A stretch of DNA of 64,000 nucleotides from positions 1-64,000 of the forward strand of contig SCSX01000090.1 of the NCBI GenBank assembly GCA_004297825.1. Reading direction: 5' to 3'. Shown here piece after piece: positions 22,911-32,806 of this stretch. The position numbers and the translations under genes are program-made. Each line of letters starts with the position of its first letter. Within the stretch, counting starts at the first letter, position 1. The notes under the pieces were generated by a model, which searched no databases, had not been told where the DNA came from, and was given only the letters and a program-made list of their open reading frames with translations. The DNA is from Spirochaetota bacterium (GTDB lineage Bacteria > Spirochaetota > UBA4802 > UBA5368).

Positions 22911-23630
22911 ATGAAACCAATCGCTTCGAAGATGATCCGTATTGCCTTCACCGCTTTCCTCGCCTGGGGATGCTCTCTCCCCTGCTCCGCCGCCGACCTC
23001 GTCACCGTGGCATCGTTTTCCACCTCGGTGGAGGACCAGGACGAAAACGTGCGGCGCAACATCCACATCGCGTGCGGGAAGCTCGACGGCATCGTGATCG
23101 GGCCCAAGTCGTCGTTCAATTTCAACGACACGGTGGGTGAGGCGACGGCGAAGAACGGCTTCGTGAACGGGCGCGTCCTCTACCGCGACGAGGTGCGCTA
23201 TGAGCCGGGCGGGGGGCTCTGCCAGGTTTCGTCCACGCTCTACAATGCGCTCCTGCTCGCCGGATGCGCGATCGTGGAGCGGCACCGCCACATGCAGCCG
23301 GTGACCTACGTACCGCTGGGCCTGGACGCGACGATCAAGTTCGGAAAGAAAAACCTGGTGATAAAGAACCCTTACGACCGGAAGCTCGTAATCCGCGCGG
23401 AGGAAAACGACAAGACGCTCACCATCCACATAAAGGCCGATTCGGCCCTCCCCCACCGTTACGAGATCGTCACCGAGGACGAGGAGCTCGAGGTCCCCAT
23501 CGTTACGGAGAACAGGCGCGTCCGCAGCGGGGTCACCGTCCAGGTCTACCGGCAGAAATACTCCGGGAACAAGCTTATCGAGAGCTTCCTTCTTTACAAG
23601 GATTACTACCCGCCGGTCTACGTGAAATGA
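22911..23630 (+). CDS. Secreted VanW-family protein
   Basis: A 239-residue protein with a signal peptide (core MIRIAFTAFLAWGCSLPCSA, cleavage near S-A-A-D). The VanW domain is clear: V-A-S-F-S-T-S, D-E-N-V-R-R-N-I-H-I-A, F-N-F-N-D-T-V-G-E, E-P-G-G-G-L-C-Q-V-S-S-T-L-Y-N-A and V-P-L-G-L-D-A-T. VanW domains occur in vancomycin-resistance loci and in YoaR-like envelope proteins next to peptidoglycan-binding modules; their chemistry is not established. The start at 22911 lacks a strong ribosome binding site; ATG 22932 is an alternative. Its stop overlaps the AMMECR1 start, and an alpha-2-macroglobulin and a SpoIID-transpeptidase gene follow. Confidence 0.85.
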   Translation: MKPIASKMIRIAFTAFLAWGCSLPCSAADLVTVASFSTSVEDQDENVRRNIHIACGKLDGIVIGPKSSFNFNDTVGEATAKNGFVNGRVLYRDEVRYEPGGGLCQVSSTLYNALLLAGCAIVERHRHMQPVTYVPLGLDATIKFGKKNLVIKNPYDRKLVIRAEENDKTLTIHIKADSALPHRYEIVTEDEELEVPIVTENRRVRSGVTVQVYRQKYSGNKLIESFLLYKDYYPPVYVK

Positions 23631-24241
23631 ACCGCGCCCCCGTGCTCTGCGCCCTGCTCGCCTGCGCGACCCTTGCAATGGTGCCCCTCGACCCGGGGAT
23701 GCGCCCCGCGGGGGACACGCTCGCGGAATGGGCTCGCTTTTCCCGCACCGCCCGGGCCCGCGCGCTCGTCGAATGGGCGCACTGCGTCATGCGCGGGGAG
23801 CTTGCGGGGCCGCGGTGCGAGGCCGTCATCCCCGGCGGCACGCCCCCGTTATACGGCAGTGCGGGGGTGTTCGTCACCCTGGTGCGCGCGGGGAAGGTCC
23901 GGGGGTGCTTCGGCGCGTTCCATCACGCCTCCGAGAGCCTCGAGGCGATACTCCGCGACTACATAAGCGGGGCGCTCCGGCGGGATCCCCGTTATGCGCC
24001 GCTTGAACCCGGGGAGCTCGACGGCGCCTCGGTGATCATCACCGTCGCCGGGATGGAGTTTCCCGTGGACGACCTCGCTGCGGTGGACCTCGCGCGCAGC
24101 GGCCTCGTCTTCTCGATGGACGGCGGCGAGCGGCTTCTCTTCGTGCCCTCCGAGATTAAAAGTATTGACTATCTGAAAAAACTCGTTAGGATGCAATCGG
24201 TCGTTCAGATCACGGCATTTCGCGCGGTCTCCATAAGGTGA
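23627..24241 (+). CDS. Secreted AMMECR1-domain protein
   Basis: A 204-residue protein with an N-terminal hydrophobic export segment (A-P-V-L-C-A-L-L-A-C-A-T-L-A-M-V) and an AMMECR1 domain (residues 45-200). The family core G-V-F-V-T-L-V-R-A-G-K-V-R-G-C-F-G-A-F is intact. AMMECR1 proteins are usually cytoplasmic and of unknown function; some are fused to MEMO1-like or radical SAM partners. An exported copy beside envelope genes is unusual. ATG overlaps the VanW stop (ATGA), so translation is coupled. The alpha-2-macroglobulin gene starts 55 bases later. Confidence 0.82.
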   Translation: MNRAPVLCALLACATLAMVPLDPGMRPAGDTLAEWARFSRTARARALVEWAHCVMRGELAGPRCEAVIPGGTPPLYGSAGVFVTLVRAGKVRGCFGAFHHASESLEAILRDYISGALRRDPRYAPLEPGELDGASVIITVAGMEFPVDDLAAVDLARSGLVFSMDGGERLLFVPSEIKSIDYLKKLVRMQSVVQITAFRAVSIR

Positions 24242-24296
24242 CGCGCGCCCTTCGCCTCCCGGGCGTCGCAACTCGAACGTATAAAGGCGGTCAACC

Positions 24297-27200
24297 ATGA
24301 AAAAAATATTCGCGGCGTCCCTCATCCTGTGCGCGGCGTCCCTCGCGATCGCCTGCGGCGTGCCGGGCAGGCAGGTGCTCCCCGACGGACGCGCCGTCTA
24401 CGCGAAGCAGGACGGTGCAGCGCTACAAAAGAAAAACGTCATCGAAGGTCACGTGCGGTATCAACACTACGAAAACGACCGCTATCACACCCTGCCGGTG
24501 AAGGGCGCCGTGGTCGAGATCAAGAACGCGAACATGGGCATGGGCTATTACCGCTGCGAAACCGACGGCAACGGCTATTTCCACGTCGAGGACTTCATCA
24601 CACAGGTCCGGTACGTGATCGAAGTACGCGCGGAGGGTTTCGTGACCTACCGGCACACACAGCATATCCAGGCCGGCACCTACGATATCCAGCTCACCCC
24701 CGAGGCGATAATCTCCGGAACCGTAAAGGATTCGGCGGGGGGGCCGATGCGCGATGTCGAGGTTCGACTCAACCATCCCCATGACGACGCCGAGTCCGGC
24801 GAGGAGGAGGAACCCGGCCGCGCGAAGCCGAAACCCTTCGTGACCGCGACCGATGCGCGCGGCCTCTACCGGTTCGACAAGCTCACGAGCGGAAGCTACG
24901 CGGTGACCTTCCAGAAACAGGGCTACATCACCGAGACCGCGCGCCTGCAGCACGTGTCCAGCGGCGAAAAATTCAACCTTCCCATGCAGATGCTTCGCCC
25001 GGCGCGTCTTTCGGGAAGGCTCTCTATCGAGGGAATAGACGCCCCGGCGATCAACGTGGACGCGACGCTCGCCTCCGGAAAAATCGCGCACTCGACCCAG
25101 AGCTACCAGGACGGGAGCTACCAGCTCGAGGATGTGAAGCCCGGGACCTACAAGCTCTCGCTCTCGCACCAGGGCTTTTTCAAGATCGAGACGCCGGTGA
25201 TTACCGTGCGCGAGGGCGACGACCGTGCGCACACCGATTTCACCATGCGCCCTAAAAGCCCGGAGCTCGAGGTTTACTCGAACCGCTACACCTTCGCGCC
25301 CGGCTCCAAGGTCGAGTTCAGCCTCAAATCGTTCAGGCTCGAAAAGGTGAAATTCACGGTCTACCGCGTTCCCGTCGCGGTGTTCTTACGGGGCAAAACA
25401 CAGCCCGGGGCCGTGGACCCCGCGACGTCGGGCTTCAGGGCGGAGCGGCAGTGGGACGATACCATACGCGAGTTCGAACCCTACGAGTGGCGCTACCAGT
25501 CCGTCGAAATGAACGAGCCCCTCCCGCCCGGCGGTTACTGCATCGAGGTGACCGGCGCCGACAAGGTCACCAGCCGCAAGTTTTTCAGCGTGACCTCCGT
25601 GGGCGTGGTCGTGAAGCGCTCGCGCGAATCGGTCTTCGCGTACGTGACGGACCTCGTCACCAACGCGCCCGTGCCCGGCGCGGCCATAGCACTCTTCGAC
25701 AACACGCCGGAGAAGCAGGAGTACCGCGAGTCCGAGTACGCCTACAAGCCCCCGGAGCGCATCGAGGACCTTCCCGTCGCCGTCGTGCAGAAGGGCGCGA
25801 CCGACGTGACCGGCGTGTACCACGCGCCGCTCAAATCGGACATGCACGTCTCCATCCTCGCCGTGGGAACCGACGGCAGCTACTCGTTCTGCAGCACGGG
25901 CTCGCCCAACCAGTTCGCGCGCGAGGAGAACAAGTTCTTCATCTATACCGACCGTCCCGTGTACCGCGCGGGCGACAAGGTGCATTACAAGATCCTGGGC
26001 AAGCACCGCGCGGAGCGCTTCGTGCCGCTGGGCCGGGACACGTACCATTACGAGATCCGCAATATCGACACCGACGACACCATAGATTCCGGGAGCTTCC
26101 CGCTCGACGAATGGGGAACCTTTCACGGCGACATCCAGCTTTCCTCCGAGGTGCGCCTGGGCGAATACGAGCTGCGCGCGGGGACGTCGCCCGACGACCT
26201 CTACGCGGCGGGGCGCTTCTACGTGGAGCAGTACCGCAAGCCCGAATTCAAGATCGAGCTCACCCCCACGGCAGCGTTCTTCACGAACGGCGACACCGCC
26301 GAGTTCAAGGTCGAGGCCCGTTACTTTTTCGGCGCGCCGCTCAAGGGGGCGCTCGTGCGCTACCGCTTCTACGAATCGCGCCTGCGCGACACCGACACCA
26401 CCTACTGGTGGGAGGAGGACTACGGGCGCAGCGAATCGTACAACAAGATCAAGCTCGAGGGCGAGAAGTACCTTGACGACAATGGGATCGCGTCCTTAAA
26501 GCTCCATTGCGGCGACTACCCCTACGACCGCGAGATCACGCTGGAGACCACCATCGTCGACAGCTCGAACGTGAGCATCACGAGCCGCGAGAGCGTGAAG
26601 ATCGGGCGGGGCGAGTACTACATAAAGATTAATCCCGCGCAGAACTTTTTCTCGGACGACGAGAAGAAGATCGTGCAGGTGAAGACGCTTGCGCACGACG
26701 GCAAACCCGTGAGCGCCCCCGTGGAGATCAAGGTCTACCGGTACGTGTGGAAGCCCTGGCAGCGCGTGTACGTGCACGACGCGAAGCCTGTGTTCGAGAA
26801 GAAGCTCACGACCGGTGAGAAGGGCACGGCCGAGCTCGAGCTTCCCGGGAAGCTCGACGTGTACGGCGAATTCGACATCGTCGCGACCGGGCGCGACAAA
26901 AAGGAAAACGTGATCAGCGCGAACCGCGTGGTGTGGATATACTCCAACTTCGGATACAAGATCGAATCGCGCTTCAAGAACCTGGAGCTCGCCGTGAACG
27001 ACGCGGAGCTGGAGAAGCCCGGCGAAATCACCTGCCTCCTCAAGAGCCGGTTCAACGACGCCTGGGTGTGCATCACCCTGGAGGGCAGGGACGTGTACGA
27101 GTCGCGCGTGGTAAAGATGACCGGCAATATCACCCCGGTCAAGCTCGACATCAAGGCGCGCTACGCCCCCAACCTGTTCATCACCGCGACCATGCAGCGC

Positions 27201-29696
27201 AACCGCGCCCTCTTCATGTCCTCGGCCGGGGTATCCATTCCCGATCCCGACACGGGGCTCACGATAGCGGTGAAGGCGGACCGGGAAAAATACCTGCCCG
27301 GGGACACCGTCAAGCTGGCCGTGAAGGCCGCCGATACCGCGGGGCGCCCCGTCCAGGCGGACATCTCGCTGGGCGTCGTGGACGAGGCCATCTACCAGAT
27401 CCGTTACGACCACACGCCGCGCATGCGCGACTTTTTCTATTCGAAGATTTCCAACTGGGTACTCACGAATTATTCCTACCCCATAACCATTCTGGCGGGA
27501 GCGGGAAAAGAGGGCAAGATCAAGGTACGCGAAAACTTCAAGGACACCGCGTTCTGGAAGCCGGACATACGTACCGGCGCGGACGGGAACGCCGAGCTCT
27601 CCTTCACGGTCCCGGACAACCTCACGACCTGGCGGCTCACCCTGCGCGGCCATGACAGGGAGGGGCGCGTGGGCGAAAAAAAGAGCGAGATCCTCGTGAC
27701 CCAGGACCTGGTCGCGCGCATCGGCAAGCCGCGCTTTTTCACCGAGGGGGACAGGCTCTCGCTCATAGGCATCGTGAACAGCAACACGGCGCGCGGCCTC
27801 GAGGCCGTCGCGACCGAGTTCAAGATGGACGGAACCGCGGTCTCCCCGGAGGAGAAGGCGAAGATCAGCCTTCCGGCGTTCGGGTCGGCCCGCGCGCACT
27901 ACCAGGTGCAAGTCCCCGGGAACAGGGAATCCGTCGACCTCTACTTCCAGGCGCGCGCCGATGCCGAGGCGAAGGACGCGCTCAAGCTCACCGTCCCCGT
28001 GCAGTCAAAGGGCGTGCCCTACAAGCTCTACGGCCTGGGGGATATGTCCGGGAATCGCGAGGTCACGCTTTCGCCCCTGGGCGCGACCGACGACTTCGAG
28101 TATCGGCCCGAGACCCTTACCATCACGGTGCACCCCGACCCGATCGCGCAGCTCATGCGCGCGTCGAAGTACCTCGCCGAGTACCCGTACGGCTGCGTGG
28201 AACAGACCATAAGCCGGTTCCTCCCGAACCTGGCCTTCAAGGCCCTGCTCGCGAAGCGCGGCATGAAGGACGTGCCGGTGGACCCGGAGCTGGACGCGAA
28301 GATCTCGGTGGGCATCCAGCGTATAACCCAGATGCAGAACGACGACGGGAGCTGGGGCTGGTGGAGCGGCGACCGCGGCAACGAGTTCATAACCGGCTAC
28401 GTGCTCTACGCGCTTCGCACCGCCAAAGGCCTCGGTTATCCCATCGACGGGGAAAGCGCGCGCCAGGGCCTGGAGGCCGTCGAGCGCATGCTGCAAAACG
28501 AATCGCTTCTTTCGCCGGACGGCAAGGCGTACCTGTTATACATCTATGCCTTTTACGGGAAATGGAGCAAAACGGCGTACGCCGCGCTCGCTAAGGAATC
28601 CGCGCTCTCGAACTACGCGCAGGCCTTCCTCGTGCGGGCGATGGCGCTCGCTCCCGGAATCGCCTCCATCCCCGCACAGGACCGCGCGGCGATCGCGAAG
28701 CTCCTTCCGGAGCAGGTGGCGGCATTAAAGAACCGCCAGCAGACGGACGGCAAGGGCGCCTACTGGGCCCCGGGTGAAAACCCCTGGGCATGGCAGGGCG
28801 CCTCGACCGAAATGAGCGCCCACGTGCTCGCCGCGCTCGTCGAATCGGGCGACACGGGGACGATCCCCGCCTCGATCGTGGCCTCGATCTGCAAGAGGAT
28901 GCGCGGCGGCGCGTGGACGAGCACCAAGGAGACCGCGCACGTCTTCTTTGCCTTCTGCAAATACCTCGAGGCGCGCACGGGTGAACTCTCGTCCGCCGGG
29001 AACATCACCTTTTCCCTGGAAGGAAAGGACATCGCGACCCTCGCCTATGACACGAAGACCATGCGTGACTGGGAAAAGCTCTCCGTGACGGTCAAGCTCC
29101 CGGGGTCGGCGGGGAGCGCGTTCAAGGTCGCCGCGCGCGGCAGCGCCGGTCCCGACGCGCTCTTCGAGCTCGCGCTCAACGGGAACCTCAACTTCAAGGA
29201 CACGGGCTTCCTCTCCCTTTTCAAGAGCGAGGACCGCAGCGTCCGCTCGCTCGAGAACGGCATCTCGCTCGCGCGCCGGTATTACTCGGTGATGCGCGTG
29301 CGCGACGCCAACAACAGCGAGTACTTCGTACCCGAGGAGATCGGGGACAGGAACGCGCTCAAGGTGGGCGACGAGCTTCTGGTCAAGATCAAGTTTCGCG
29401 CCCAGGACAACTTCGAGTACCTGGTGCTCGAGGACTACCTGCCCAGCGGTTTCGAGGTCGTGATGAAGAACGCCTACGGCGAGTACCAGCCCTTTTCCCA
29501 CGCCGAACAGTGGGACAACCGCATGGTGTTCTTCTTCACCGGGCTTGAAAAGAACCGGGTGTACGAGATCGCCTACATCATGCGCGCGGAGCTTCCGGGC
29601 GAGTTCCTGGCCCGGCCCTCGCGCATGGAGTGCATGTACGAGCCCTCCATACAGGGATGGGCATCTCCCTCCCGGTTCGTGATCCAGAAGAAGTAG
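24297..29696 (+). CDS. Alpha-2-macroglobulin family lipoprotein with thioester
   Basis: A 1799-residue lipoprotein (lipobox S-L-A-I-A-C, Cys20). Residues 35-325 hold three carboxypeptidase-regulatory-like beta domains, an N-terminal addition; macroglobulin domains follow (F-I-Y-T-D-R-P-V-Y-R-A-G-D near 545), then the A2M family segment W-K-P-D-I-R-T and V-P-D-N-L-T-T-W-R (near 1085). The thioester motif C-V-E-Q is intact at Cys1300-Gln1303 within Y-P-Y-G-C-V-E-Q-T, followed by the helical complement-like domain and a C-terminal receptor-binding-like domain. Bacterial members trap proteases in the periplasm, and in E. coli YfhM pairs with PBP1C. Here the next gene, two bases on, is a SpoIID-transpeptidase fusion. 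Confidence 0.93.
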   Translation: MKKIFAASLILCAASLAIACGVPGRQVLPDGRAVYAKQDGAALQKKNVIEGHVRYQHYENDRYHTLPVKGAVVEIKNANMGMGYYRCETDGNGYFHVEDFITQVRYVIEVRAEGFVTYRHTQHIQAGTYDIQLTPEAIISGTVKDSAGGPMRDVEVRLNHPHDDAESGEEEEPGRAKPKPFVTATDARGLYRFDKLTSGSYAVTFQKQGYITETARLQHVSSGEKFNLPMQMLRPARLSGRLSIEGIDAPAINVDATLASGKIAHSTQSYQDGSYQLEDVKPGTYKLSLSHQGFFKIETPVITVREGDDRAHTDFTMRPKSPELEVYSNRYTFAPGSKVEFSLKSFRLEKVKFTVYRVPVAVFLRGKTQPGAVDPATSGFRAERQWDDTIREFEPYEWRYQSVEMNEPLPPGGYCIEVTGADKVTSRKFFSVTSVGVVVKRSRESVFAYVTDLVTNAPVPGAAIALFDNTPEKQEYRESEYAYKPPERIEDLPVAVVQKGATDVTGVYHAPLKSDMHVSILAVGTDGSYSFCSTGSPNQFAREENKFFIYTDRPVYRAGDKVHYKILGKHRAERFVPLGRDTYHYEIRNIDTDDTIDSGSFPLDEWGTFHGDIQLSSEVRLGEYELRAGTSPDDLYAAGRFYVEQYRKPEFKIELTPTAAFFTNGDTAEFKVEARYFFGAPLKGALVRYRFYESRLRDTDTTYWWEEDYGRSESYNKIKLEGEKYLDDNGIASLKLHCGDYPYDREITLETTIVDSSNVSITSRESVKIGRGEYYIKINPAQNFFSDDEKKIVQVKTLAHDGKPVSAPVEIKVYRYVWKPWQRVYVHDAKPVFEKKLTTGEKGTAELELPGKLDVYGEFDIVATGRDKKENVISANRVVWIYSNFGYKIESRFKNLELAVNDAELEKPGEITCLLKSRFNDAWVCITLEGRDVYESRVVKMTGNITPVKLDIKARYAPNLFITATMQRNRALFMSSAGVSIPDPDTGLTIAVKADREKYLPGDTVKLAVKAADTAGRPVQADISLGVVDEAIYQIRYDHTPRMRDFFYSKISNWVLTNYSYPITILAGAGKEGKIKVRENFKDTAFWKPDIRTGADGNAELSFTVPDNLTTWRLTLRGHDREGRVGEKKSEILVTQDLVARIGKPRFFTEGDRLSLIGIVNSNTARGLEAVATEFKMDGTAVSPEEKAKISLPAFGSARAHYQVQVPGNRESVDLYFQARADAEAKDALKLTVPVQSKGVPYKLYGLGDMSGNREVTLSPLGATDDFEYRPETLTITVHPDPIAQLMRASKYLAEYPYGCVEQTISRFLPNLAFKALLAKRGMKDVPVDPELDAKISVGIQRITQMQNDDGSWGWWSGDRGNEFITGYVLYALRTAKGLGYPIDGESARQGLEAVERMLQNESLLSPDGKAYLLYIYAFYGKWSKTAYAALAKESALSNYAQAFLVRAMALAPGIASIPAQDRAAIAKLLPEQVAALKNRQQTDGKGAYWAPGENPWAWQGASTEMSAHVLAALVESGDTGTIPASIVASICKRMRGGAWTSTKETAHVFFAFCKYLEARTGELSSAGNITFSLEGKDIATLAYDTKTMRDWEKLSVTVKLPGSAGSAFKVAARGSAGPDALFELALNGNLNFKDTGFLSLFKSEDRSVRSLENGISLARRYYSVMRVRDANNSEYFVPEEIGDRNALKVGDELLVKIKFRAQDNFEYLVLEDYLPSGFEVVMKNAYGEYQPFSHAEQWDNRMVFFFTGLEKNRVYEIAYIMRAELPGEFLARPSRMECMYEPSIQGWASPSRFVIQKK

Positions 29697-29698
29697 GG

Positions 29699-31768
29699 AT
29701 GCGCGCCGCCGCGCTCCTCCTGCTCGCAAGCCTGCTTCCGGCGCCCGCATGGGCCGGAAGCGACGTTGCGCGCAATGGGGGGCCGATACGCGTCTCCATC
29801 CTCTCCCGGCACCTGAAGTCGATGGCCGCGGGCGAGCTGGATCGAATCCTGTTTGAACTTCCGGATAACGTCTCCTGCGTCCGCGCGGACGGCGGGACGC
29901 GCGTCCCGGTGAAAACTATCGAGATCGCCCACCGCGACGGCGCCTTCCGGGTCCTCCTGGACGGGGAAGCGGCCGGCGATCGCGTGAGCCTTACGATCGA
30001 GGGCGCCCCCGGACTCACGGTCGGGGTGCGCTTCAGGGACGATTCGAGGCGCTACCCCCTTCCCCTGCGCATCGACGCATCGCCCCGGGAAATCTCGATC
30101 GTCGCGAGCGAAGAGCCCGAACGCTACGCGCGCGACAGCGCCGCCGCCGAATACGGCCCCCAGCCCCGATCGGGCGCGGAGGCGCTCGAAGCGCTCTCCC
30201 TCCTCGTCCTCGCGCGCGCGGAGCGCGCGCGCGCCCGCCCCGTACACGGGAACGCGCACGTCTGCGACCTGAGCCACTGCCAGGTCTACCGGGGGCGCCT
30301 CGACCGCGCCGACACGAGTATCGGCGAAGCAAATTTCCCGTGGCGCATCGACGCGACCGCGCTTTTTTGCGAACCCGTGTTCCACGCGCGCTGCGGGGGC
30401 GCGACCCTGGGCGACGGCGTCTTCAGCCTGGGCGAAAAGCGTGCTCCGGGGGTCCGCGACCGGCTGCTTGGCGAGGGCGTCTACCTTTGCCGGAACGGCC
30501 GGGAGGGATGGACCGCCGCGCTTCCGGCCGGCGAGCTCAGGTCCATCCTGGGCGGGGACACGGGCGAGATCGCCGCGATCGTCTACGACCGCGCGGCGTG
30601 CCGGCTCGAAATTCGAACCGACAGGGGACCTCTCGAGTTCGCGCCCGAGGATTTCCGCCTCAGGATCAACCGGGTCAAGGGGTGGAGTTTTTTGAAAAGC
30701 AACAATTACGAGGTTCGAAAGGGCGACGACGCGGGTGGCGCGGCGTACCTGTTTTCCGGGCGGGGCCTGGGGCACAACGCGGGACTGTGCCAGCACGGCG
30801 CCCTCGCGCTCGCGATGCGCGGCTTTTCACGCTACGAAATTCTATGCCATTACTTTCCCGGGATCGGTTTTGTACGGGGCGCGCACGAACGCGAGCCGGA
30901 CAGTCCCTATCTCTCTTACGTCGGTTTTTCGCTCGTAACGGGGGAAGTCCTGGACGCGCGCTATGCGCAGATACTCTCCCGCAGCGTCGCACCCGGTTCC
31001 GTCTTCAAGCTGCTGGTTTCGCTCTACCTCGTCGCGCGCCGCCCCGACCTCGCGCGCGGTTATCGCTATACCTGCGAGGGCGCGAGCGCCGATACGCACA
31101 TGCCCGAAAAATGCTGGAAGCCGGGCGGGCACGGCGACACCGATCTCTCCCGCGCGATCTCGTGCTCGTGCAATCTCTACTTCGCCTCGCTCTACGCGCA
31201 CATCGACCGCGCCGATTTCGCGTCATTCATCGCCTCCCTGTCCCGCCGGCCGGGAATCGCCCTCGCGCTCCCGGACATAGACGGGGACGCCGGATTCGCG
31301 CGCCTGCTGTGCGGCCTCGATTACCGCGTGAAGCTGACCGTCCGCGATCTCGTGAAGGTCGCGATGACCGTCTCTCCCGTCGCGGTATCGGACCGCCCAG
31401 TCGATGAATTCCGGCGATCGCTGCCCGCGGGCGGCCTGGAGGTCATCCGCGCGGCCCTGGCCGAGACGGTGCGCACGGGTACGGCATCCGGGGAGAGCGA
31501 ACCGTACGGAAGCGCGCGGGAGAATATCGAACCCCTTCGCCGCGGGCCCCTGGAGGGCGACGACGAGCCCGGGGGCATGGTCCCGTCGTCATCGTGCTGG
31601 GGGAAAACCTCGACTGTCATGGCCGGAACGAACCGGTACCTTTCCTATGGATTGTTCCTGGGGGGCGACAGGGACAGGGGGCTCATAACCATCGTAGCGC
31701 GGGGGAACGGCCACCTGGCCGCCCGGTGGGGGCTCAGGATTTTAGGACGGGAACCCCCTGCCCGTTGA
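29699..31768 (+). CDS. SpoIID domain fused to a penicillin-binding transpeptidase-like domain
   Basis: A 689-residue exported protein (signal peptide 1-20, ending A-P-A-W-A-G). Residues 30-390 form a SpoIID region, with the hallmark G-R-G-L-G-H-N-A-G-L-C-Q-H-G-A near 355-370; SpoIID cleaves denuded glycan strands as a lytic transglycosylase. Residues 410-680 look like a penicillin-binding domain: S434-V-F-K437 (S-x-x-K), S490-C-N492 (S-x-N) and K636-T-S638 (K-T-G/S), in the right order. Many cysteines (about 18) are unusual for a periplasmic enzyme. GTAGGG precedes the ATG, two bases after the alpha-2-macroglobulin stop. It takes the place PBP1C has beside YfhM in E. coli. Domain calls are from motifs; activity of each half is untested. 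Confidence 0.82.
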   Translation: MRAAALLLLASLLPAPAWAGSDVARNGGPIRVSILSRHLKSMAAGELDRILFELPDNVSCVRADGGTRVPVKTIEIAHRDGAFRVLLDGEAAGDRVSLTIEGAPGLTVGVRFRDDSRRYPLPLRIDASPREISIVASEEPERYARDSAAAEYGPQPRSGAEALEALSLLVLARAERARARPVHGNAHVCDLSHCQVYRGRLDRADTSIGEANFPWRIDATALFCEPVFHARCGGATLGDGVFSLGEKRAPGVRDRLLGEGVYLCRNGREGWTAALPAGELRSILGGDTGEIAAIVYDRAACRLEIRTDRGPLEFAPEDFRLRINRVKGWSFLKSNNYEVRKGDDAGGAAYLFSGRGLGHNAGLCQHGALALAMRGFSRYEILCHYFPGIGFVRGAHEREPDSPYLSYVGFSLVTGEVLDARYAQILSRSVAPGSVFKLLVSLYLVARRPDLARGYRYTCEGASADTHMPEKCWKPGGHGDTDLSRAISCSCNLYFASLYAHIDRADFASFIASLSRRPGIALALPDIDGDAGFARLLCGLDYRVKLTVRDLVKVAMTVSPVAVSDRPVDEFRRSLPAGGLEVIRAALAETVRTGTASGESEPYGSARENIEPLRRGPLEGDDEPGGMVPSSSCWGKTSTVMAGTNRYLSYGLFLGGDRDRGLITIVARGNGHLAARWGLRILGREPPAR

Positions 31769-31864: not shown

Positions 31865-32749
31865 ATGAAGCTGAGAAATATCTCCGTCACCGCGCTCTGC
31901 CTGGCAGTCTGTGTTGCCCTGCTGGGGCTGTTCTCCGTCGTCGCGACAGTAAACGCCCAGGACGCCGCGAAGGACGCCCCCAAGGACGCCAAGGAAGTCA
32001 AGGCGGCCGATAAAAAGGAAGAAGCCCCCAAGGAAGTCACGGGCTGGCGGGTGAAGGATTTCAAACCCTATATACAGGCCATGCAGGAGCTGCAGAAGCT
32101 CAGCAAGGACTATTCCGAGAACATGCTGAAGCTCGCGATCGACGAATACTCGACGGGACTCGACATCCTCGAGGACATGGAAAACGAGGTGACCAAGCTC
32201 GTCACCGCCAACAAGGAAAAGAAGAACCTGAACGAACGGTGGTACTGGCAGGAAATCGACCGGAAGAACCAGGAAGAGCGCCAGGTCGCGAAACTGAAAT
32301 ACGACGCCAAGCTTAAATCGGTCACCTATTTCACCCGCGCGATCAACCACATGGACAATGTGCAGTTCCAGGAGGTCAGGAACAACCCGAAGTTCCAGAC
32401 CTTCCAGAGCCGGCTGTACCAGGTGTACGTCTCTTCCCAGTACGACCTGTACAACTTCAAGCCTTGCATCCCCATACTCGAGCGTTATATCGCTTTGAAC
32501 GAGCAGAATAAAAAGGACGTGTGGGCCTACAAGTACCTTTCGAGCTGCTACGGCTACCTCGAAACGGTGGTGGGCAAGTCGAGCCAGGCGCCCGAGGCGA
32601 CGCAGCTTCAGTACAAGCAGTTCAAGAACCGCTACATGCTGCAGGCGGTGGAAATCGAGTTCGGCGCGGAATCGATCGAGTACAAGCATCTGCGGGAAAT
32701 CGTGGAGATGGACGAGAAGAAATCGGAGCGCTTGAACGACTTCAAGTAA
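31865..32749 (+). CDS. Periplasmic helical (TPR-like) protein of unknown function
   Basis: A 294-residue exported protein. A signal peptide (core V-T-A-L-C-L-A-V-C-V-A-L-L-G-L-F-S, cleavage near V-N-A-Q) is followed by a 30-residue Lys/Asp/Ala linker (A-A-K-D-A-P-K-D-A-K) and then amphipathic helices to the end. Residues 150-230 read like TPR hairpins (Y-F-T-R-A-I-N-H-M and L-E-R-Y-I-A-L-N-E). No family recognised; TPR-type periplasmic proteins act in envelope assembly and in spirochaete flagellar collars, so a scaffold role is possible. Single-gene unit with its own hairpin terminator at 32777-32806. Confidence 0.75.
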   Translation: MKLRNISVTALCLAVCVALLGLFSVVATVNAQDAAKDAPKDAKEVKAADKKEEAPKEVTGWRVKDFKPYIQAMQELQKLSKDYSENMLKLAIDEYSTGLDILEDMENEVTKLVTANKEKKNLNERWYWQEIDRKNQEERQVAKLKYDAKLKSVTYFTRAINHMDNVQFQEVRNNPKFQTFQSRLYQVYVSSQYDLYNFKPCIPILERYIALNEQNKKDVWAYKYLSSCYGYLETVVGKSSQAPEATQLQYKQFKNRYMLQAVEIEFGAESIEYKHLREIVEMDEKKSERLNDFK

Positions 32750-32776: not shown

Positions 32777-32806
32777 CGCGGCGGGGAAACCCGCCGCGTT
32801 TCATTT
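32777..32806 (+). terminator. Rho-independent terminator
   Basis: CGCGGCGGG (32777-32785), GAAA tetraloop, CCCGCCGCG (32790-32798), then TTTCATTTT. Lies between convergent genes. Confidence 0.75.

Follow-up and report, generated by a model that had tools for sequence, protein, structure and literature searches.

A cluster of four genes on a 64,000-nucleotide stretch of a Spirochaetota genome (GenBank assembly GCA_004297825.1, contig SCSX01000090.1, positions 1 to 64,000 of the forward strand; hereafter the window) encodes, in this order, a VanW-domain protein, a secreted AMMECR1-domain protein, an alpha-2-macroglobulin (A2M), and a fusion of a SpoIID-like domain with a penicillin-binding transpeptidase domain (SpoIID-TP) (Table 1). 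The nearest known system is the Mag/Yfa-type cluster, not the YfhM-PBP1C pair of Escherichia coli, with which an initial annotation made from the sequence without database searches had compared it. On balance, we favor the view that the four products form a periplasmic complex that couples A2M to peptidoglycan repair and represents a spirochaete variant of Mag/Yfa. The grouping of the genes is far beyond chance, since the genome encodes a single A2M and a single VanW protein and the cluster recurs in relatives at 31 to 60% protein identity with differing flanks. The same genome contains 3 AMMECR1 genes and 7 scored penicillin-binding transpeptidases. As first described, the genes share one strand, and their junctions are exactly those given initially: a 4-base ATGA overlap between VanW and AMMECR1, a gap of 55 bases before A2M, and a gap of 2 bases before SpoIID-TP. 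By inspection, the cluster products carry signal-peptide-like N termini, that of A2M being lipoprotein-like.

Table 1. Coordinates of the four genes and their domains and motifs in the window, with DUF1175 sequences from other loci used for comparison.
Feature	Position	Strand	Description and basis
VanW-domain protein	22911..23630	+	239 aa, N-terminal signal; candidate L,D-transpeptidase; PF04294 E=1.3e-41
VanW invariant Cys104, presumed nucleophile	23220..23222	+	alignment; Cys-His triad of VanW L,D-transpeptidases (PMC12729407)
AMMECR1-domain protein, secreted, shortened	23627..24241	+	204 aa; PF01871 E=1.8e-16
A2M, thioester-containing, probable lipoprotein	24297..29696	+	1799 aa; MG2, BRD, A2M, TED, bMG10
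Three CarboxypepD_reg-like repeats, A2M N terminus, residues ~45-325	24429..25271	+	PF13620, 3 stretches
A2M bait segment, residues 1032-1082	27390..27542	+	predicted disordered; conserved, nearly fixed length
A2M thioester motif GCVEQ, residues 1299-1303	28191..28205	+	C, E, and Q invariant in family
SpoIID-TP fusion	29699..31768	+	689 aa, N-terminal signal; NCBIfam, structure model
SpoIID-like domain, residues ~30-393	29786..30877	+	E151 candidate catalytic Glu; model superposes on Clostridioides difficile SpoIID 5i1t, TM-score by target 0.66
Penicillin-binding transpeptidase domain, residues 399-689	30893..31765	+	S434xxK437, S490-C-N492, K636-T637, invariant in 21 orthologues
DUF1175 examples	L103 10337-10960 (E. 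coli yfaT); L090 12235-13275; L158 8620-9402		pattern comparison

Conservation of the cluster was followed through about 390 Spirochaetota genomes (samples of 354 to 392), with coordinates compared by hand and membership of the window's A2M subfamily set at about 1,200 bits or more, pieces included. The subfamily is present in 34 of 392 genomes, and several families within the order lack it. Several others hold the four genes in the same arrangement, many of them with unrelated flanks. Every genome with a strong VanW match (30 genomes), the secreted AMMECR1 (32 genomes), or the SpoIID-TP fusion (25 genomes, one with a fragment) is an A2M carrier. VanW lies directly upstream of A2M in 24 genomes; the remaining copies lie 4 kb (one) or 6.5 kb (one) upstream of A2M or elsewhere in the genome (G014), and contig ends leave the placement of three undecided. 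AMMECR1 adjoins A2M in 29 genomes, and the fusion is found downstream of A2M in 22. Gaps between VanW and AMMECR1 are at most 25 bases in 18 of 22 loci, those between AMMECR1 and A2M at most 55 bases in 22 of 24, and those between A2M and SpoIID-TP at most 25 bases in 12 of 19. The genes thus stay together amid unrelated flanks and with coupled junctions, as the initial annotation had anticipated for a functional unit. As for the outcome that it had set against such a unit, scattered genes or junctions with promoters and terminators of their own, we found no clear terminator inside the cluster, where terminator-like matches occur at about chance level, and broken clusters keep their parts in the same genome, VanW and AMMECR1 standing together but apart from A2M in G014 and G026. 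Foreign genes occur between VanW and AMMECR1 in two relatives (L036 1996-4100 and L046 1218-7046), an SDH-type ClpP-like protease in one and five genes in the other.

The trio of VanW, AMMECR1, and A2M is also found in Leptospiraceae metagenome-assembled genomes and in one bin labeled Deltaproteobacteria (L111). The A2Ms of this bin and of a Syntrophorhabdus bin (L121, truncated) are 53 to 55% identical to that of the window and nest inside the spirochaete clade in a FastTree phylogeny, so that horizontal transfer or mis-binning is possible for both. In the same phylogeny, the VanW-AMMECR1-linked A2Ms form one clade (support, 1.0), and YfaS of Citrobacter groups with spirochaete A2Ms from DUF1175-type clusters (support, 0.99), while deeper nodes are weak.

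The magABCDEF cluster of Pseudomonas aeruginosa and the yfaPQSTA cluster of E. coli resemble the window cluster in being multi-gene assemblies of exported proteins around an A2M, and in the protein encoded directly after it, which is transpeptidase-like with a SpoIID part (YfaQ, DUF2300). This position of the yfaQ-type gene is the same in E. coli, on a Citrobacter plasmid, and in the window. A SpoIID domain was identified in E. coli YfaQ (Pfam, E=7e-6), and the N-terminal part of YfaQ aligns with the window transpeptidase domain around GSLWK and SCGLYF (hhalign, 90%). The alignment reached 95% (E=3e-8) with YfaQ and its Citrobacter homologue combined, and unrelated Yfa proteins used as controls gave 0.2%. 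Against an Acidobacteriota fusion, YfaQ gave a weak match with two-sequence profiles (17%, E=0.0015), in which the SpoIID part alone aligns, and only short collinear pieces in pairwise BLAST. The homology of YfaQ is therefore based on the Pfam SpoIID match and the 95% hhalign result; PF10062 found no match in the window SpoIID-TP protein. The fusion had initially been taken as a spirochaete replacement of the repair enzyme that accompanies A2M in E. coli. This view has to be given up, because YfaQ of E. coli is already transpeptidase-like plus SpoIID. We take YfaQ to be the equivalent of MagB from its cluster position; the sequences compared were E. coli YfaQ and its Citrobacter homologue.

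The window cluster differs from Mag/Yfa in several respects. The order of domains is SpoIID-TP instead of TP-SpoIID-HExxH, and the motifs of the wall enzymes are intact. DUF2138, DUF1175, and DUF2135 are missing, with no DUF1175 anywhere in the genome and no DUF2135 among the four genes, and VanW and AMMECR1 stand in the place of the latter two domains. Neither protein is the counterpart of YfaT (DUF1175), a relationship that was considered and ruled out (hhalign, <1%). Mag/Yfa A2Ms are of type II, without thioester, whereas the window A2M possesses the motif. The thioester is missing in the Citrobacter A2M and kept in all spirochaete clusters tested. Its loss is thus not universal to the Mag/Yfa type, since spirochaete clusters of the DUF1175 type retain it.

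These DUF1175-type clusters of spirochaetes and Acidobacteriota bridge the window cluster and Mag/Yfa. Spirochaetes inside and outside the order (L090, L095, L097, and L101) encode DUF1175-A2M-DUF2135 and, as two individual genes, transpeptidase and SpoIID, and an acidobacterium (L158) encodes DUF1175, A2M, one further gene, and a TP-SpoIID-HExxH fusion. One spirochaete (L100) has the order AMMECR1-A2M-VanW-DUF2135, and in two Armatimonadota (L141 and L179), the A2M gene overlaps a VanW gene. As clusters in different A2M clades carry such enzymes, bacterial A2Ms are repeatedly tied to peptidoglycan enzymes. DUF1175 itself matches NlpC/P60 weakly and keeps DC(A/S)GL, H-x-M, and YHTG as an invariant pattern, on which basis it is probably an enzyme of the cell-wall type and may be a papain-like cysteine enzyme. 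The acidobacterial fusion (L158 14898-17483) adjoins A2M and carries its HExxH at the C terminus; YfaQ ends in HEYLH, and the TP-SpoIID-HExxH layout may be ancestral for DUF2300 proteins. A complete yfa-type cluster (DUF2138, DUF1175, A2M, DUF2300, and DUF2135) sits on a Citrobacter plasmid classified as mobilizable by MOB-suite (L181 2028-11363; NZ_CP134684.1), which indicates that such clusters can travel.

The likeness to YfhM (ECAM)-PBP1C of E. coli is limited to a thioester A2M that is a probable lipoprotein and whose gene lies beside that of a peptidoglycan transpeptidase (PMC4498604). The gene downstream of the window A2M has no glycosyltransferase match; its product combines SpoIID with a class B-like transpeptidase, unlike PBP1C. 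In addition, the window cluster differs in the presence of VanW and AMMECR1, in a conserved bait, and in the three N-terminal CarboxypepD_reg repeats of its A2M.

The domain composition of the SpoIID-TP fusion is weakly represented in Pfam (SpoIID and Transpeptidase each at E=0.012, under the curated cut-offs). NCBIfam matches both parts, with the TIGR02669 score under its cut-off. An AlphaFold2 model built with 21 orthologues (mean pLDDT, 82.8) confirms both predicted folds, the transpeptidase part resembling class B penicillin-binding proteins (Z of ∼24 over 244 to 257 residues). E151 and the C-D-L-x-x-C motif (residues 189 to 194) of the SpoIID domain are invariant. A single-sequence scan of genome contigs with SpoIID-TP returned no relative, whereas profile searches did find relatives. 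In G023, the SpoIID-TP gene (L010 1316-3208) lies on a different contig from A2M and is reported with one in-frame TAA, which may reflect decay or a match end effect.

The VanW protein has an invariant Cys104 within GGGLCQVSSTL and an invariant R-H-R-H (residues 124 to 127) in 16 orthologues, and searching PDB with its profile gave no match. Work on C. difficile in 2024 revealed VanW domains to be L,D-transpeptidases that have a triad of Cys, His, and a small residue (PMC12729407; PMC11986978). The window protein has the VanW domain with the catalytic Cys and His, as do LdtCd4 and LdtCd5 of C. difficile, and is by sequence a candidate enzyme of this kind. It differs from both in being short, secreted, A2M-linked, and from a Gram-negative bacterium, and in having no PG4 domain by Pfam. 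The initial annotation had counted VanW and AMMECR1 as two poorly understood proteins; given the L,D-transpeptidase members of its family (PMC12729407), VanW no longer fits this description. The AMMECR1 domain scores well above the Pfam cut-off (60.6 versus 25 bits), and its profile matches MM0484 (PDB 1zq7; E=3.5e-9), with which it shares the core domain and the VRGCxG motif. VRGCxGAF, D120, R122, and VPxE show little or no variation among 17 orthologues. In contrast to other members of the family, the window protein is exported, shortened, and encoded in a cell-wall cluster; the secreted proteins form a discrete subfamily (at least 149 bits, versus at most 68 bits for the other AMMECR1s, including those of the same genomes). 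The window protein also falls under the cut-off of the AmmeMemoRadiSam system model TIGR04335 (48.5 versus 99 bits).

The A2M contains the MG, BRD, TED, and C-terminal bMG10 domains of a type I protein together with a CXEQ-type thioester motif, and its lipoprotein-like Cys20 aligns in most orthologues. Its bait segment (residues ∼1032 to 1082) aligns with residues 895 to 980 of E. coli YfhM, which include the disordered bait at residues 923 to 942 (PMC4498604). In 27 family members, the bait spans 46 to 47 residues (counted from residue 1038 to 1083) and exceeds its flanks in conservation (pairwise identity, 71% versus 54%; ratio, 1.30), and the baits of spirochaete DUF1175-type A2Ms are similar (ratio, 1.36; n=5). 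By comparison, A2Ms of the Eremiobacterota, Verrucomicrobia, and Planctomycetota types, control groups that are small and more divergent than the window family, have baits of variable length and 0.55 to 0.67 times the conservation of the flanks. Conservation had led us to expect an ordered bait, an expectation dropped because a model of residues 640 to 1799 predicts disorder: the bait is its longest stretch of low confidence (pLDDT, <50), which is no proof of disorder. A bait both flexible and conserved, as alignment and model suggest, agrees better with a single dedicated protease or partner than with promiscuous trapping. Of the putative envelope-defense system proposed initially, the link between A2M and peptidoglycan enzymes is well supported by gene context, while the broad-spectrum trap, for which a variable and promiscuous bait is expected, fits poorly with a bait that is conserved and nearly fixed in length.

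The repair model starts from the clustering, the intact catalytic motifs, the predicted folds, the homology with YfaQ, and the conserved bait; the location of A2M, the triggering at the bait, the action of the thioester, and the steps at the wall are conjectural. A2M would be held as a lipoprotein at a membrane, where a particular protease or partner would act on the flexible bait and expose the thioester, which in turn could fix the attacker or anchor A2M at the site of damage. The SpoIID domain may then trim damaged glycan strands, the transpeptidase domain may re-form 4-3 cross-links, and VanW may add 3-3 cross-links from existing tetrapeptides, with no need for fresh precursors. AMMECR1 could be a Cys-dependent accessory or ligand-binding subunit. 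The model is supported by the related Mag complex, whose A2M, MagD, protects P. aeruginosa from certain peptidoglycan-targeting type VI secretion effectors by an unknown mechanism (PMC12663445) and is stabilized by its partner MagB (PMC5764988). It is also supported by the L,D-transpeptidases among VanW domains (PMC12729407), by the conserved cluster with its coupled junctions and the confinement of VanW, AMMECR1, and SpoIID-TP to A2M carriers, and by the recurrence of links between A2M and wall enzymes in other spirochaetes, Acidobacteriota, and Armatimonadota. A more specific version, which we put forward tentatively, makes A2M a sensor or switch: cleavage of the bait by one dedicated protease, or binding of a partner, would direct VanW and SpoIID-TP to breaches in the wall, and the same trigger logic would apply in Mag/Yfa, with MagB/YfaQ as a disguised transpeptidase-SpoIID protein.

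Several observations weigh against the repair complex. The SpoIID-TP gene is separated from VanW, AMMECR1, and A2M in G003, G008, and G023, and carriers G035, f3, and f11 lack it, which shows that it is not an indispensable part. YfaQ has lost part of its motifs (SCG for SxN, no GHGxG), and the E. coli partner may consequently be structural. Certain VanW proteins have no transpeptidase activity (PMC12729407), the conserved bait may be a sign that A2M does not trap attackers at all, and the role of AMMECR1 is left unexplained.

The same bait could instead belong to a regulated scaffold in ordinary wall remodeling, with cleavage of A2M by one endogenous protease turning on the wall enzymes during growth, division, or stress. 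The nearly fixed length and high relative conservation of the bait agree with this, as does its predicted disorder, which a motif dedicated to cleavage or binding should show, and the A2M is the only one in the genome. We nevertheless consider such a housekeeping role rather unlikely, as the patchy presence of the A2M subfamily, which several families within the order lack, fits an accessory defense better, and the fully kept thioester suggests covalent capture. The thioester and the lipoprotein-like N terminus are shared with ECAM, and a transpeptidase partner is encoded directly downstream, features that would agree with a broad YfhM-like protease trap and a PBP-like enzyme for repair, to which VanW and AMMECR1 are incidental. 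This reading is improbable in view of the conserved bait and of a partner that belongs with YfaQ and SpoIID and not with the bifunctional PBP1C; moreover, the linkage of VanW and AMMECR1 to A2M is tighter than that of SpoIID-TP, so they are not incidental. We give similarly little credence to a tethering function, in which VanW and the A2M thioester would link envelope proteins covalently to peptidoglycan, stabilizing the envelope without repairing it. Some L,D-transpeptidases do attach lipoproteins or outer membrane proteins to peptidoglycan, and the lipoprotein-like A2M with its intact thioester would suit such a link, but the reviewed tethering enzymes are of the YkuD type and not VanW (PMC12729407), and both the lytic SpoIID domain and the transpeptidase domain would be left without a role.

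These findings bear on the question of why bacteria retain macroglobulins and of how MagD confers its protection (PMC12663445). The same transpeptidase-plus-SpoIID partner occurs in A2M clusters of organisms as far apart as spirochaetes and E. coli, together with additional wall enzymes, either VanW or DUF1175 (NlpC/P60-like), which suggests a joint action of bacterial macroglobulins and cell-wall repair. The shared partner makes two questions testable, whether it acts on the wall and whether A2M recruits it. Likely functions for DUF2300 and for DUF1175 are suggested by the comparison as well; our full-text search of a literature collection found no paper naming DUF2300.

None of the four proteins matched an anti-phage defense library. 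Downstream of the cluster, 96 bases after SpoIID-TP, a gene (31865-32749) encodes a 294-aa protein without Pfam match that is kept in this position only within the window's own family, and a strong hairpin terminator-like site follows this gene at 32777-32798.

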